A stretch of DNA of 64,000 nt from Cytophagales bacterium. GTDB lineage: Bacteria > Bacteroidota > Bacteroidia > Cytophagales > Cyclobacteriaceae. Positions within the stretch are counted from its first letter, which is position 1. The number at the start of each line of letters is the position of its first letter. This document shows, piece after piece, positions 38,440 through 44,670 of this stretch. The DNA lies in contig JAAFHY010000001.1 of the NCBI GenBank assembly GCA_013298505.1, positions 62,001 through 126,000 on the forward strand. Direction: 5' to 3'. The position numbers and the translations under genes were made by a program. A model generated the notes under the pieces. The model made no database searches. It had not been told where the DNA came from and was given only the letters and a program-made list of their open reading frames with translations.

Positions 38440-38543
38440 AAGGCAGATCCAACAAGGTTAGGTAATGATCTGCAAGTTGTAAAATGTTGAGAATTTTTCA
38501 ATGAAATAGAGAAAGCATTTAGTCTACGAGGAGCACAAAAAAA

Positions 38544-38572
38544 TACACCCGAAGAAAATAACTTCGGATGTA
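38544..38572 (-). terminator. Rho-independent terminator of the 43005->38583 operon
   Basis: Minus strand TACATCCGAAG-TTATTTT-CTTCGGGTGTA followed by TTTTTTT. Confidence 0.8.
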
Positions 38573-38582
38573 CATTACAAAA

Positions 38583-39842
38583 TCAATTAAAATCAATGGT
38601 CTTTACATCTTCCCACGGTACGTAGCTAGCCTCCTCTTTTTTACCGGCAAAAATCAACACACCTTGATTTCGGTCGTTTACATCTTGCGCATCTTCCAAC
38701 CGAATTTTCTTTCCAGATTTCAATTCGATATTGCAGCGGTAATCATTGATAGGTTCAATCATTTTAATATCGCGGAAAGATGTGGTTAGTTCGAACTCAC
38801 CTTGCTTTCCCTGTAGCAATTCATAATTACTTTCTTCATCCAGATCAAAAATAATTTTGCCCGATAATGTCCTTCCATCTTTCGTTACAACGATACCATC
38901 TAGCGATTTCTGATTGGCAAATTGATCATAGCTAGCCAAAGAGCCGGCAGGTTCAGAAAATGTTACCTTATCGAATTCACGCCAAGGCACGTCAATCGCT
39001 ATCATTTCCTTGCTCATGATGATAATCCCACGATTTCCACTATCCACATCGTTGCTCCCATCCATCACTAGCTCTCTGCCAGACTTCATTTTTACTAAGC
39101 TTCGCCCACCGCGTCTTTCTATTGACGTGATCTTCGAAAATTCAAGAGAGATGTTTCCATCCTCTGCATCGCCATCCAGCTTATCTGTGCTCAGCCGCTC
39201 GTCATGATCCCACTGAATGTAGCCCGTAAATTTTTCGCCAAATGCTTCTACTGTGCCGTACAGCGGTTTGCCAAAACGGTTTGCCAAAGACTTGGGCGTT
39301 TTTAAGAATTCGATTTTGCGAATCCTTCCCCAACTCATTTCTAACTCGCCCATTTCAGGATCCATAATACGGATTTCCTCACCCACATCATTATATCCTT
39401 CGCCTTTGAGCGAAATCTTATCACCGTTTTGCATTTCTAAATCGACATACTTGCGGCCGGACGGGACGATTGTTTTGATCTCACCAAACTGACAGGCGAA
39501 CTGATGTTCATAATCATTATCATAATCGTTTCGTCTATCGCCCCAGTTGCCAAACCACCGATACCAATTTCCATTGTTCCAATTACTCCAGGTATTCTGT
39601 CGATCGTCCAACCGGTCACGATCCTTTGACGACAAGTATCGTAAGTTTTGATTTCGCTCTTTACCGGCATTGAAGATGTCGGCCCAATAGACCTCTTCTT
39701 TTCCCCAGCGTATGGGGCCTTCATACACCTTGTCATCAATGGTGTAAACCTTTCCGTAGATGAATCCTTCGTCTTGTGCGTTGGCATTGAAAAAAGCCAA
39801 AGCAACGAATACGAACGCAAGTGATTTTGTAATGGTTTGCAT
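38583..39842 (-). CDS. Secreted protein, paralog A of a three-module family flanking a LytTR two-component system
   Basis: Signal peptide MQTITKSLAFVFVALAFFNANAQ; EGFIYGKVYTIDDKVYEGPIRWGKEEVYWADIFNA; three related ~110-aa modules. ORF track start 39953 is an upstream extension. Confidence 0.8.
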   Translation of the reverse strand: MQTITKSLAFVFVALAFFNANAQDEGFIYGKVYTIDDKVYEGPIRWGKEEVYWADIFNAGKERNQNLRYLSSKDRDRLDDRQNTWSNWNNGNWYRWFGNWGDRRNDYDNDYEHQFACQFGEIKTIVPSGRKYVDLEMQNGDKISLKGEGYNDVGEEIRIMDPEMGELEMSWGRIRKIEFLKTPKSLANRFGKPLYGTVEAFGEKFTGYIQWDHDERLSTDKLDGDAEDGNISLEFSKITSIERRGGRSLVKMKSGRELVMDGSNDVDSGNRGIIIMSKEMIAIDVPWREFDKVTFSEPAGSLASYDQFANQKSLDGIVVTKDGRTLSGKIIFDLDEESNYELLQGKQGEFELTTSFRDIKMIEPINDYRCNIELKSGKKIRLEDAQDVNDRNQGVLIFAGKKEEASYVPWEDVKTIDFN

Positions 39843-39911
39843 AGCGAGTATTTTTTCTTGAATTATACTGCTAATGTCAGGCAAGGTTATAGCGTAAAGA
39901 AGCAGAAGCGG

Positions 39912-39940
39912 CCGAAGCGTATAGGGAGCTGACTGAATCG
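39912..39940. promoter_or_regulatory. Putative LytTR-type direct-repeat site upstream of paralog A
   Basis: CCGAAGCG (39912) and CTGAATCG (39933), 21-bp start-to-start. Confidence 0.5.
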
Positions 39941-39962
39941 GGATAAAAGCCAACTCAAATTT

Positions 39963-40721
39963 TTACTGGTCAATCCAACTTTTAAACTCCGGGGTGCGCT
40001 CGGAGCTGATAATTACTTCTTCCGTGGCGGGTGGTGTGAGATTGAGCTTGATGCGCCCTTTGAAATAGGGATGAATTTCTGCAATACTTTGAAAGGTAAC
40101 AATGAATTGCCGGTTAGCGCGAAAGAATGACTGCGGGTCAAGCACGTCCACGAGTTCGTCCAGTGGCTGATCGAGGGGGTAACGCTTTTGATCGGTAGTA
40201 ACAGCAAAAGAGAGTTTATTCTCGCTGAAAAAATAGGCGATTTTCTCTACAGGAACAGTCACTATTTTTTGACCTAACCGAACCATGAATCTTGATTTGT
40301 ATGTTTTCTTTGACGCCTGCAGCAGCTTGGTCAATTCGATATAGTCAATACCAGAAATTGTGGATGAAGTGCGGGTCTTTACCTTCATCAAGGCTGTCGA
40401 CAGTTTTTCAGATTGAACAGGCTTCAATAAATAATCAATACTATTTACCTCGAAGGCTTTGATGGCGTATTGATCATAGGCCGTGGTGAAAATGATTGGG
40501 GCTTCCGTTTTTACTTGCTGAAAAATTTCAAAACAAAGGCCATCCAACAAACGAATGTCAGAAAGGATTAAATCAGGATGGGGATTTGTTTTTAGCCATT
40601 CAATGGCGGCTTGTACCGATTTGAGATGCATGACAATCTCTATGGTGGGGCCGATACCAGCTAGAAGATTTTGCAATCTTTCAGCGGCTAATGTTTCGTC
40701 TTCAATGAGTAGTACTTTCAT
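39963..40721 (-). CDS. LytTR-family DNA-binding response regulator
   Basis: Receiver MKVLLIEDETLAAERL..DLILSDIRLLDG..FTTAYDQYAIKAFEVNSIDYLLKP; LytTR FFRANRQFIVTFQSI. Confidence 0.93.
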   Translation of the reverse strand: MKVLLIEDETLAAERLQNLLAGIGPTIEIVMHLKSVQAAIEWLKTNPHPDLILSDIRLLDGLCFEIFQQVKTEAPIIFTTAYDQYAIKAFEVNSIDYLLKPVQSEKLSTALMKVKTRTSSTISGIDYIELTKLLQASKKTYKSRFMVRLGQKIVTVPVEKIAYFFSENKLSFAVTTDQKRYPLDQPLDELVDVLDPQSFFRANRQFIVTFQSIAEIHPYFKGRIKLNLTPPATEEVIISSERTPEFKSWIDQ

Positions 40722-40743
40722 TTTTAAGAAAAATTTGCAGATA

Positions 40744-41766
40744 CTAATCTCCCATTTCCAATAGCGGAATGCGCACTTCAAAGTGATCTTCTGTTTGGAT
40801 GATTTCCACTTTCAAATCGGTAAAGTGCGCATAGCGTTGCTCAATGTTTTTGAGGCCGCTTCCGTTGCGTTCGTCCACAGTCGGCTTGGCAAACAAACTG
40901 TTGCGAACGATCAGATGACTGGAATTTTCCAGAACCTGAATGTGGAGCGGACGCGCTTCGGTGATGAGATTGTGTTTAATGGCATTTTCAACAAGCATTT
41001 GGAGCGTAAGCGGGGGAATCATTTTTCCCTTGCTGTTGCTGGTTAAAGTTACTTCAAAACGGATGTGATCTTCAAAGCGTATGTGGATTAAGTACATATA
41101 GCTTTGTATAAACTCCAATTCTTCGTAAAGCGGAATGAGATCATCGGATTTTGTATTGAGTAGGGCGCGGTATACTTCGGCAAACTTTTCAATAAATTTT
41201 TTTGAAGTGGACGTATCTTTGTCAATCAGCGAAGAAAGAATATTCAGGTTGTTGAAAAGGAAGTGCGGGTCGAGATGATTTTTTAATGAGTCAAGTTGCG
41301 AGCGCATCGATTCCTTTTGACTTTTGGCCACTTCCAATTCTGACTTGCGCCAATGCCGCAGAAAGTGAAGGCTGAAATACAGCGAAAATGCCGGAATAAA
41401 AATAGCAGCTCCCCACACGTTCATCACCGTAAATTGCTCGCGTGTAGGCGGATCGTCTGTTAAAAAAACTTTAATGGCGTAGTAAATGCCGTTTACCAAC
41501 AGCAGTAAATAAGAGAGGCCTAACGCCAACTGAATGAAGAAACGCCAATTTCCATATTTGTTCCAAGGCAGAATTTTATCGAGGCGCAAGGTTAACTGAC
41601 GATTGCCGAACCAGAGCAGCAAAGCAATAACAATCAGCCAGCCGGCAGTGAAATAAAAAATGGGCCCCGGTTCAATGAAATACAATAGTGCAGCAATCAA
41701 CACTAAAATGATACCGATTGCCAGCCCTATGCGTAGCGAGTTTTTTTTCACAATGAGTCCGAACAA
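40744..41766 (-). CDS. LytS/YehU-type (His_kinase family) sensor histidine kinase
   Basis: LDSLKNHLDPHFLFNNLNILSSLI; LQMLVENAIKHN; GSGLKNIEQRYAHF. Starts TTG immediately after the paralog B stop, or GTG at 41751. Confidence 0.92.
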   Translation of the reverse strand: MFGLIVKKNSLRIGLAIGIILVLIAALLYFIEPGPIFYFTAGWLIVIALLLWFGNRQLTLRLDKILPWNKYGNWRFFIQLALGLSYLLLLVNGIYYAIKVFLTDDPPTREQFTVMNVWGAAIFIPAFSLYFSLHFLRHWRKSELEVAKSQKESMRSQLDSLKNHLDPHFLFNNLNILSSLIDKDTSTSKKFIEKFAEVYRALLNTKSDDLIPLYEELEFIQSYMYLIHIRFEDHIRFEVTLTSNSKGKMIPPLTLQMLVENAIKHNLITEARPLHIQVLENSSHLIVRNSLFAKPTVDERNGSGLKNIEQRYAHFTDLKVEIIQTEDHFEVRIPLLEMGD

Positions 41767-43005
41767 TTACTTGAAGATAATCTCATTAATTTTCTTCCAA
41801 GCAATGTGCACAGGATCTTTTTTACCTTGGCGGAATAGTAATACGCCACTGTTTCCATCGGAAACATCGCGCATGCCACCCAATAGTAATCGTTGGCCGG
41901 ATTTTAACTCAATTTCCGAGTAATCGAAATTCTTTGGAGTGATGCGGGCAATCAACCGAATAGGAATCTGGTATTCAATGTCGTTTTCTTTTCCTTCAAT
42001 CATTTCAAAATCCAGCGCTTCATCCACATCGTAGATAATTCTACCCGACAACTCATCACCATCCACCAAAGAGACGGTCGCTTCCATGGGTTTTGGCGCT
42101 GTAAAACTGTTATAGGATTGTCCGGTACCCGGTGCAGGCGAAAAGGAAATCTTCCGAAACGCCTTCCACGAAAATTTAATAACACCAAATTCCGGATTAA
42201 CTACCCAAACGCCCCGGTTGCCACTGTCTACATCATTGGAATCATCCAGATACTGTGTGCGTCCGGATCGTAAAGTTACATCACAGCCATCGTCTCGCTT
42301 TTCGATCATTGTTATTTCCGAGAATTTAATTGAGACATCTCCATCTCGCGTATCTCCATCCAGTTTGTCTGATGAAAGCCGCTCGTCATTATCCCAAACA
42401 ATATAGCCGGTGTAGCTTTCTCTGCGGCCGCCTTGCACCGTGCCATACAGGGGTTGGCCAAACACTTGATCCAATTTGGTTGGCGTGTTTTGAAATTCAA
42501 TGCGCTGAATGCGATCCCAATTGATATTGATAGTGCCCAGCTCTTCATCGAGAATCTGTACTTTGCTTCCCAGGTCATTATAGCCCTCACCGTCAACACG
42601 AAGCTCGCCTCCATTTTTTAATTTCAAGGTTACATCATCTTCATCGCGGACTATGATTTCTTTTAAGTTTCCAAACTGGCAGGTAAACTGGTGTACGGTT
42701 CCTTTGTTTTCCCAAATGCTTTCAAACGACCAATCGTAGTTTGACCACCAGTCTTTATCTTCTTTTTGTTTGGGTACTAACTTAGCATAATCGTTATTGC
42801 GTTTGGCGGCATTGAAGATATCTGTCCAGAAAACTTCTTCAGCCCCCCAGCGGATCGGACCTACATAAGTGGCGCGGTCGGTGTACACCTTTGCATACAT
42901 GTAGCCCTCATGCGACTGCGCTGGCGCAACGGTAGCCAATGCCAGAAAAGCAACGATCAATCCGATCACTACTACTACCGTTTTAAAAATACTTTTGGAT
43001 TCCAT
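41767..43005 (-). CDS. Secreted protein, paralog B of the three-module family
   Basis: HEGYMYAKVYTDRATYVGPIRWGAEEVFWTDIFNAAKRNND; DERLSSDKLDGDTRDGDVSIKFSEITMIEKRDDG; clear homology to 38583..39842. Confidence 0.8.
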   Translation of the reverse strand: MESKSIFKTVVVVIGLIVAFLALATVAPAQSHEGYMYAKVYTDRATYVGPIRWGAEEVFWTDIFNAAKRNNDYAKLVPKQKEDKDWWSNYDWSFESIWENKGTVHQFTCQFGNLKEIIVRDEDDVTLKLKNGGELRVDGEGYNDLGSKVQILDEELGTININWDRIQRIEFQNTPTKLDQVFGQPLYGTVQGGRRESYTGYIVWDNDERLSSDKLDGDTRDGDVSIKFSEITMIEKRDDGCDVTLRSGRTQYLDDSNDVDSGNRGVWVVNPEFGVIKFSWKAFRKISFSPAPGTGQSYNSFTAPKPMEATVSLVDGDELSGRIIYDVDEALDFEMIEGKENDIEYQIPIRLIARITPKNFDYSEIELKSGQRLLLGGMRDVSDGNSGVLLFRQGKKDPVHIAWKKINEIIFK

Positions 43006-43057
43006 GCCACCGTATACGAGTTCGAGTACCAAAGTTGATAAAGATTGAGGCTATGGC

Positions 43058-43065
43058 CAAAGATA
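43058..43065 (-). promoter_or_regulatory. Bacteroidetes-type -7 promoter element TAnnTTTG
   Basis: Minus strand TATCTTTG, 53 bp upstream of the 43005 start codon. Confidence 0.4.
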
Positions 43066-43071
43066 CATGAA

Positions 43072-43104
43072 CTGAATCGGGCGATTAGTGCGCTGAATCG
43101 GGCG
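43072..43104. promoter_or_regulatory. Putative LytTR response-regulator site: two identical 12-mers, 21-bp period
   Basis: CTGAATCGGGCG at 43072-43083 and 43093-43104. Confidence 0.65.
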
Positions 43105-44031: not shown

Positions 44032-44670
44032 TCAGCTATGCTTAAAGAAATCGGAACGCAGGTAAAAAACGGTATCTATAAAAAACAATGCTCCGTGGTT
44101 GGTCAGTACATTTTCTTCATGTAAATCCTCGAGTATAAGCCCGATATCCCGATGAAAGTAGTCATTTTCTTTTTTTAATTCGAATCCATTACTAAAAAGA
44201 AAGTCTTTCACTAGAGACAGACGGGTCGGCTCTGTGATTTCAATATAAGGCTGCCGAACGACAGATTTTAATTGATGATTATCGAAGTAAAATCCTATCA
44301 AAGAATATGCCGTTGGTTCAAAAAAGAAATTGTGAATTAGCAGGCTATGAAAGTAATCTTCCCAATAGCTGTAAAAAATGCAACTATTTAATTTGATCAC
44401 ATGCCTCCCATCATTTTCCAGATATACTTTTTGTTCAGCACCCTCAGCTAAAAATCGAGTTTCGTCAATACCAGTGTACCAGAGATGCTCTTGCTCAATC
44501 CAACGGATTAACCGTTCTGTTTCTTGACCTTTTGTGAGCTGGATTGTTGAAGCTTCTGAACTTGCTTCTTTGCTTTTTCTAAGGTAGTTGGCTCCTGCTT
44601 GGATAGTATCTCCTTTTGGATTTTTGCCAACTCCTGAAATGATATGTTGTAGCTCATCTTTCAACGACAT
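44032..44670 (-). CDS. Kinase-fold protein resembling the polyvalent-protein kinase family
   Basis: FLAEGAEQKVYLENDGRHVIKLN; LLIHNFFFEPTAYSLIGFY; LEDLHEENVLTNHGALFFID. Confidence 0.55.
   Translation of the reverse strand: MSLKDELQHIISGVGKNPKGDTIQAGANYLRKSKEASSEASTIQLTKGQETERLIRWIEQEHLWYTGIDETRFLAEGAEQKVYLENDGRHVIKLNSCIFYSYWEDYFHSLLIHNFFFEPTAYSLIGFYFDNHQLKSVVRQPYIEITEPTRLSLVKDFLFSNGFELKKENDYFHRDIGLILEDLHEENVLTNHGALFFIDTVFYLRSDFFKHS

Follow-up and report, generated by a model that had tools for sequence, protein, structure and literature searches.

A LytS/LytTR two-component system and two exported paralogues in a probable self-contained envelope regulon of aquatic Bacteroidota

The window analyzed here, a 64,000-nucleotide stretch of a Cytophagales bacterium genome (assembly GCA_013298505.1, contig JAAFHY010000001.1, positions 62,001 to 126,000), carries on its minus strand four adjacent genes which encode, in order of transcription, a predicted exported protein (PB), a LytS-type histidine kinase (K), a LytTR response regulator (R), and a second exported protein (PA) paralogous to PB, followed by a terminator-like hairpin. 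A previous sequence-only reading had proposed this order and these coordinates, a kinase start touching the PB stop, a terminator after PA, and a LytS/LytTR two-component system between the paralogues, and our gene calls and domain searches bore out each of these points. The TTG start of the kinase immediately abuts the PB stop (an alternative GTG start lies at 41751-41749), and a hairpin of 12 pairs with a T run occupies 38573-38543, though such sites were overall no more frequent in our hairpin scan than in shuffles. The kinase matched His_kinase (PF06580, E=2.9e-21), while the regulator matched Response_reg (1.1e-14) and LytTR (PF04397, 1.3e-18), all above cut-off. Between regulator and PA lies a gap of 120 base pairs (bp) holding an operator and a promoter-like region of PA's own, and hence PB-K-R with a co-regulated PA is the more fitting description of the unit. 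The features are as follows:

41767..43005, minus strand: PB, exported three-module protein, the position-1 paralogue, which always has the kinase as its neighbor
40744..41766, minus strand: LytS-type histidine kinase (PF06580), start TTG 41766 or GTG 41751
39963..40721, minus strand: response regulator, receiver plus LytTR DNA-binding domain, ATG start
38583..39842, minus strand: PA, exported three-module protein, the position-4 paralogue
38543..38573, minus strand: intrinsic-terminator-like hairpin and T run 3' of PA, 12 pairs
43093..43102, minus strand: PB operator, distal half-site CCCGATTCAG, perfect copy, kept in the related loci L011-L013
43072..43081, minus strand: PB operator, proximal half-site CCCGATTCAG, 21-bp period, completing the only 0-mismatch pair of the genome
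43030..43037, minus strand: candidate -7 element CAACTTTG, 34 bp past the PB operator, position conserved across loci
43058-43065: second TAnnTTTG, TATCTTTG, which makes the exact -7 element in this genome ambiguous
39933..39942, minus strand: PA operator, distal half-site CCCGATTCAG
39912..39921, minus strand: PA operator, proximal half-site TACGCTTCGG, degenerate (4 mismatches), same site in L011-L013

Comparison of upstream regions among near relatives revealed the operator as a tandem repeat, CCCGATTCAG-N11-CCCGATTCAG, with a period of 21 bp, perfect before PB and present as a related copy before PA. Its consensus is information-rich, and when a pair was allowed up to 6 mismatches in its 20 positions, it was found upstream of 42/45 position-1 and 36/39 position-4 genes (~93%) versus ~1.3% of shuffled regions. 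Downstream of the operator, both promoter sets share a -33-like TT at offset 10 and a TAnnTTTG-type -7 element at offset ~33, with its TTT at offset 37; judged by its sequence, this pair is a Bacteroidota-type -33/-7 promoter, directly preceded by the repeat. In characterized LytTR autoregulation, 9-bp repeats, mostly spaced by 12 bp, lie some 10 bp before the -35 (PMC6193735), and as the layout here is the same, the regulator likely activates rather than represses.

Genomes in which a paralogue sits away from the other genes offered a further view of this operator. Relatives were sought in one genome per species (108 found, 75 loci read), and 33 genomes carried a solitary paralogue gene, 10 of them operator-positive and 23 operator-negative. 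These calls were fixed before the gene content of the genomes was looked up; the one borderline call, L063, had 8 mismatches by the fixed scoring and was grouped by eye with its sister L066, also prior to the look-up. A second paralogue was present in all 10 operator-positive genomes, each time with a kinase 0.1-0.3 kilobases after it that scored 261-355 bits to the window kinase, while all 23 operator-negative genomes had exactly one paralogue and unrelated LytS kinases only, none above about 175 bits; in phylogenetic terms, the genomes compared are not independent. PA can therefore leave the locus yet stay in the regulon, which makes it a transcription unit of its own, and the "four-gene operon" of the sequence-only reading gives way to two LytTR-controlled promoters, with PA on its own operator-bearing promoter and sitting elsewhere in 10/33 genomes. 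Of the separate constitutive units that this reading had listed as evidence against its proposal, separateness holds for PA, which keeps the operator when it sits elsewhere. The reading's suggestion of an autoregulated system with the paralogues as output is strongly supported by an operator standing before both PB and PA and co-inherited with PB-K-R.

The four-gene order is far from a chance arrangement. It was complete, as PB-K-R-PA, in 39 loci (the window and two same-genus genomes included) spread across Cytophagales and Saprospirales, and the set is thus a recurrent one among many aquatic Bacteroidota; a lack of conserved order, which would have spoken against the sequence-only reading, was not observed. 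Distribution is nevertheless patchy within the window's genus (the window's genome and 2/36 others), and of 396 genomes drawn evenly from the phylum, 6 held any relative. On the tree, the position-1 (PB) proteins group in a single branch that contains no solitary gene, while a second branch unites the position-4 and solitary proteins with the single paralogues of two P-K-R loci; the separation of PB-type from PA-type indicates an old duplication whose products have kept their roles apart by position. Those two loci (L008, 6081-9168; L080, 6529-9665) pair one paralogue of the PA side with kinase, regulator, and operator, and may represent a minimal or ancestral form. In another (L057, 11285-11464), all that follows P-K-R of a second paralogue is a 60-amino-acid fragment, which probably is what remains of a decayed PA.

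Several loci add observations of their own. In three Fulvivirga-type loci (L018, 9384-12328; L022, 9308-12237; L071, 9410-12324), a convergent second LytTR system with two tandem LytS-type kinases directly follows PA, with a conserved exported-looking gene farther on. In a metagenome-assembled genome (MAG) labeled Rickettsiales, the locus (L060, 4243-9236) is almost the same as in Marinoscillum, and this genome is likely mislabeled or mis-binned.

As to the size of the regulon, a scan of the window's own genome at up to 3 mismatches returned the PB operator as the only intergenic site; the sole other match lies within a coding sequence, and a wider regulon in this genome was rejected on that ground. 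The predicted regulon here is essentially the PB-K-R and PA units. Across 25 related genomes, sites away from paralogue genes were no more than modestly above a reversed-pattern control, and hence the intergenic ones are leads and not results. Among these, a one-mismatch operator (L148, 1501-2086) precedes the gene of a 142-amino-acid small exported protein, after an FtsX permease gene, and this protein is a possible third regulon member in that genome. A 2-mismatch operator in a Roseivirga MAG (L145, 1501-2263) lies between a PspC-TM/Toastrack/DUF2807 gene and an extracytoplasmic function (ECF) sigma factor gene, and a further intergenic site (L142) precedes a secreted-protein gene. Outside the locus, positions 44035-44670 of the window hold a stand-alone gene with a match to Kinase-PolyVal (PF18762, 2.8e-59), a domain whose name derives from the polyvalent proteins of mobile elements.

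The two paralogues are homologous from end to end (41% identity, 61% positives, E=1e-111), as the sequence-only reading had noted, and their three modules are homologous to one another (hhalign, 98-99.7%). An AlphaFold model of PA (mean predicted local distance difference test score, pLDDT, 88.8; predicted template modeling score, pTM, 0.85) has three consecutive 10-strand units, with a low-confidence insert in unit 1 (residues 87-108). W-x-x-(D/E)E and NDV-x(3)-NRG stand out as conserved acidic motifs. Both N-termini carry a hydrophobic segment closing with a signal-peptidase-like A-x-A-Q stretch, and past residue 60 the median isoelectric point is 4.7-4.9. Lipobox-like motifs were found in 0/39 PB and 2/39 PA, on which ground lipoprotein export was rejected, leaving a cleaved signal peptide as the likely route; the mature proteins would then be periplasmic.

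Neither protein matched Pfam or NCBIfam above curated cut-offs, 44 family members scanned singly against Pfam gave scattered weak matches only, a profile search of PDB sequences found nothing, and fold searches of PDB with the whole protein and with the module 2 model alone returned no match at E below 0.001. Thus, a match to a characterized family, which the sequence-only reading had named as evidence against itself, was not found in Pfam, NCBIfam, or PDB. The best sub-threshold fold matches of a module were HsiE1 (4uqx-z) and LytTR DNA-binding domains (Foldseek); the latter, together with weak Pfam matches in 3/44 members, had pointed to descent of the exported modules from LytTR, a reading rejected at a profile-profile probability below 10%. 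BapA_N, FERM_C, and Lepto_7 were discarded as identities because their matches were sub-threshold and inconsistent, and a role in anti-phage defense was dropped after PADLOC gave no meaningful match. Toastrack, PspC, and LiaF domains were absent from PA, PB, and the 44 members in the Pfam scan, and literature searches on the protein family or gene set found nothing specific. What is new here is the exported protein family together with its closed two-promoter regulon.

The window kinase carries the H, N, and G boxes of its class (HLDPHFLFNN, ENAIKHN, GSGLKNI), with H168, N261, and their flanks invariant across 12 kinases. By hydropathy it has about four transmembrane segments joined by short loops, in which T103, P107, and Q111 are invariant, and no extracytoplasmic sensor domain; Pfam gave no match to the 5TMR_LYT sensor domain, so "LytS-type" describes the kinase core only. 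Such a few-segment, short-loop architecture suits a kinase informed by partners. Mirror-tree analysis linked PA to the kinase membrane domain beyond what kinase core and regulator account for (partial r 0.41; 0/500 permutations as high), and this moderate covariation hints that PA may touch the kinase.

Relatives outside the cassette point to the cell envelope. Among cassette-less solitary genes, a same-strand MacB_PCD/FtsX permease gene was adjacent in 15/23 loci from about five clades (Marinifilaceae; Ekhidna and allies; L056/L058; L069; L073), the two genes standing directly side by side in, for example, L035 (7977-11724), L032 (3418-7212), L058 (5502-9236), and L085 (5114-9248), which represent several unrelated clades. 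At another locus (L067, 7953-11174), a solitary paralogue gene follows an Omp85-superfamily gene and overlaps and precedes two same-strand Toastrack genes (DUF4097, LiaF_C), and Toastrack proteins are parts of envelope-stress systems (PMC11237479). An envelope-stress role is favored because relatives adjoin permease genes across clades and Toastrack genes at this locus; with exported proteins that lack a lipobox and have such neighbors, reading the whole as an envelope system is plausible.

Taken together, the locus is probably a self-contained, autoregulated envelope two-component system whose regulon is itself plus the two exported paralogues. Gene identities, family, order, operator, co-inheritance of operator and PB-K-R, and regulon size are established at the level of sequence, and on these a mechanism can be sketched. 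The kinase would phosphorylate the LytTR regulator, which would bind the CCCGATTCAG repeat directly upstream of the -33 region at two promoters and activate both, the first driving PB-K-R (positive autoregulation) and the second driving PA. PA and PB might jointly recognize a cationic ligand or an insult to the envelope; one of the two would act on the sensor-poor kinase, by feedback or as its co-sensor, and the other would be the protective or binding output. Several observations weigh against this account: covariation with the kinase membrane domain is closer for PA and not for PB (partial r 0.41 versus a weak 0.08); in the window's genome, the PA operator has a degenerate proximal half-site; solitary genes with the operator cannot be counted as phylogenetically independent of the four-gene loci; four-gene loci are mostly without a permease neighbor; and each of these genomes holds many MacB-type genes (from 5 to over 80), so that single adjacencies are weak and their recurrence over clades carries the argument. 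A bolder version, in which PA and PB are a pair of exported beta-module receptors, an extracytoplasmic co-receptor of two paralogues that gives sensing to sensor-less LytS kinases in a closed loop and derives from an older family working with MacB/FtsX-type permeases in envelope defense, strikes us as quite unlikely on present evidence.

The strongest competitor holds that PA and PB are pure effectors, e.g., an envelope-protective or ligand-sequestering pair, with the kinase sensing through its own membrane domain and nothing signaling back. In its favor, the kinase loops have invariant residues, BtsS is an example of another LytS-type kinase that uses its membrane domain for sensing (PMC10653868), and solitary paralogues exist without any system kinase, indicating that the family has a kinase-independent function. 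Against it, PB was in this sample always accompanied by the kinase. Closed regulons of small size that include feedback are, as a rule, found where an output acts back on the sensor, which would also count against pure effectors, and we hold this explanation to be a real contender at somewhat below an even chance. If instead the paralogues locked the kinase in the manner of CpxP or LiaF, keeping it off until they are titrated away by damaged envelope or ligand, this would suit their predicted export, their predicted autoregulation by the system, a kinase without a sensor domain, and the covariation between PA and the kinase membrane domain; yet CpxP, LiaF, and RseB show no significant sequence or fold match to either paralogue, and the mirror-tree signal is modest and unequal between PA and PB, making such negative feedback unlikely. 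That the neighborhood is conserved with no regulatory linkage, PA and PB being housekeeping secreted proteins, could draw on the PA-type relatives which occur alone in Marinifilaceae, Calditrichota, and others, but the occurrence of the operator, which tracks PB-K-R without exception even where PA is unlinked, disfavors this explanation to the point of making it very improbable.

The self-contained regulon favored here defines an exported protein family missing from Pfam and NCBIfam, a conserved four-gene signaling cassette of Bacteroidota, and its operator. Its function is directly testable, with a regulon of two promoters, one motif, and cultured hosts (Fulvivirga, Roseivirga, Chryseotalea), while the solitary PA-type genes, some in genomes that hold the cassette and some not, offer a natural experiment on the capture of an envelope protein by a two-component system.

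Among known systems, this one is a variant of the LytS/LytTR kind (BtsS/BtsR, YpdA/YpdB, LytS/LytR), with which it shares the PF06580 core, a receiver-LytTR regulator, a small adjacent regulon, and a direct-repeat operator of about 9-10 bp with a 21-bp period just upstream of the promoter. It differs in a kinase without detected 5TMR_LYT, an operator sequence of its own, and outputs in the form of two exported paralogues, whose family is undescribed, instead of a transporter or holin-like protein. The LytTR Regulatory Systems HdrRM and BrsRM (PMC6193735) likewise use positive autoregulation via tandem repeats ~10 bp upstream of -35, but there a receiver-less LytTR protein is paired with a membrane inhibitor, whereas here a true kinase acts with a receiver domain. 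With LiaFSR/VraTSR and the Toastrack systems linked to phage shock proteins (PMC11237479), the cassette has in common envelope protein genes, an autoregulated unit, a kinase without a large sensor domain, and a solitary relative (L067) overlapping Toastrack/LiaF_C genes, while PA and PB carry no Toastrack, PspC, or LiaF domain and a LytS kinase and LytTR regulator replace LiaS and LiaR. Finally, the Cpx system with CpxP provides a works-like analogy only, without homology, in that an exported protein of the regulon may act back on the kinase.

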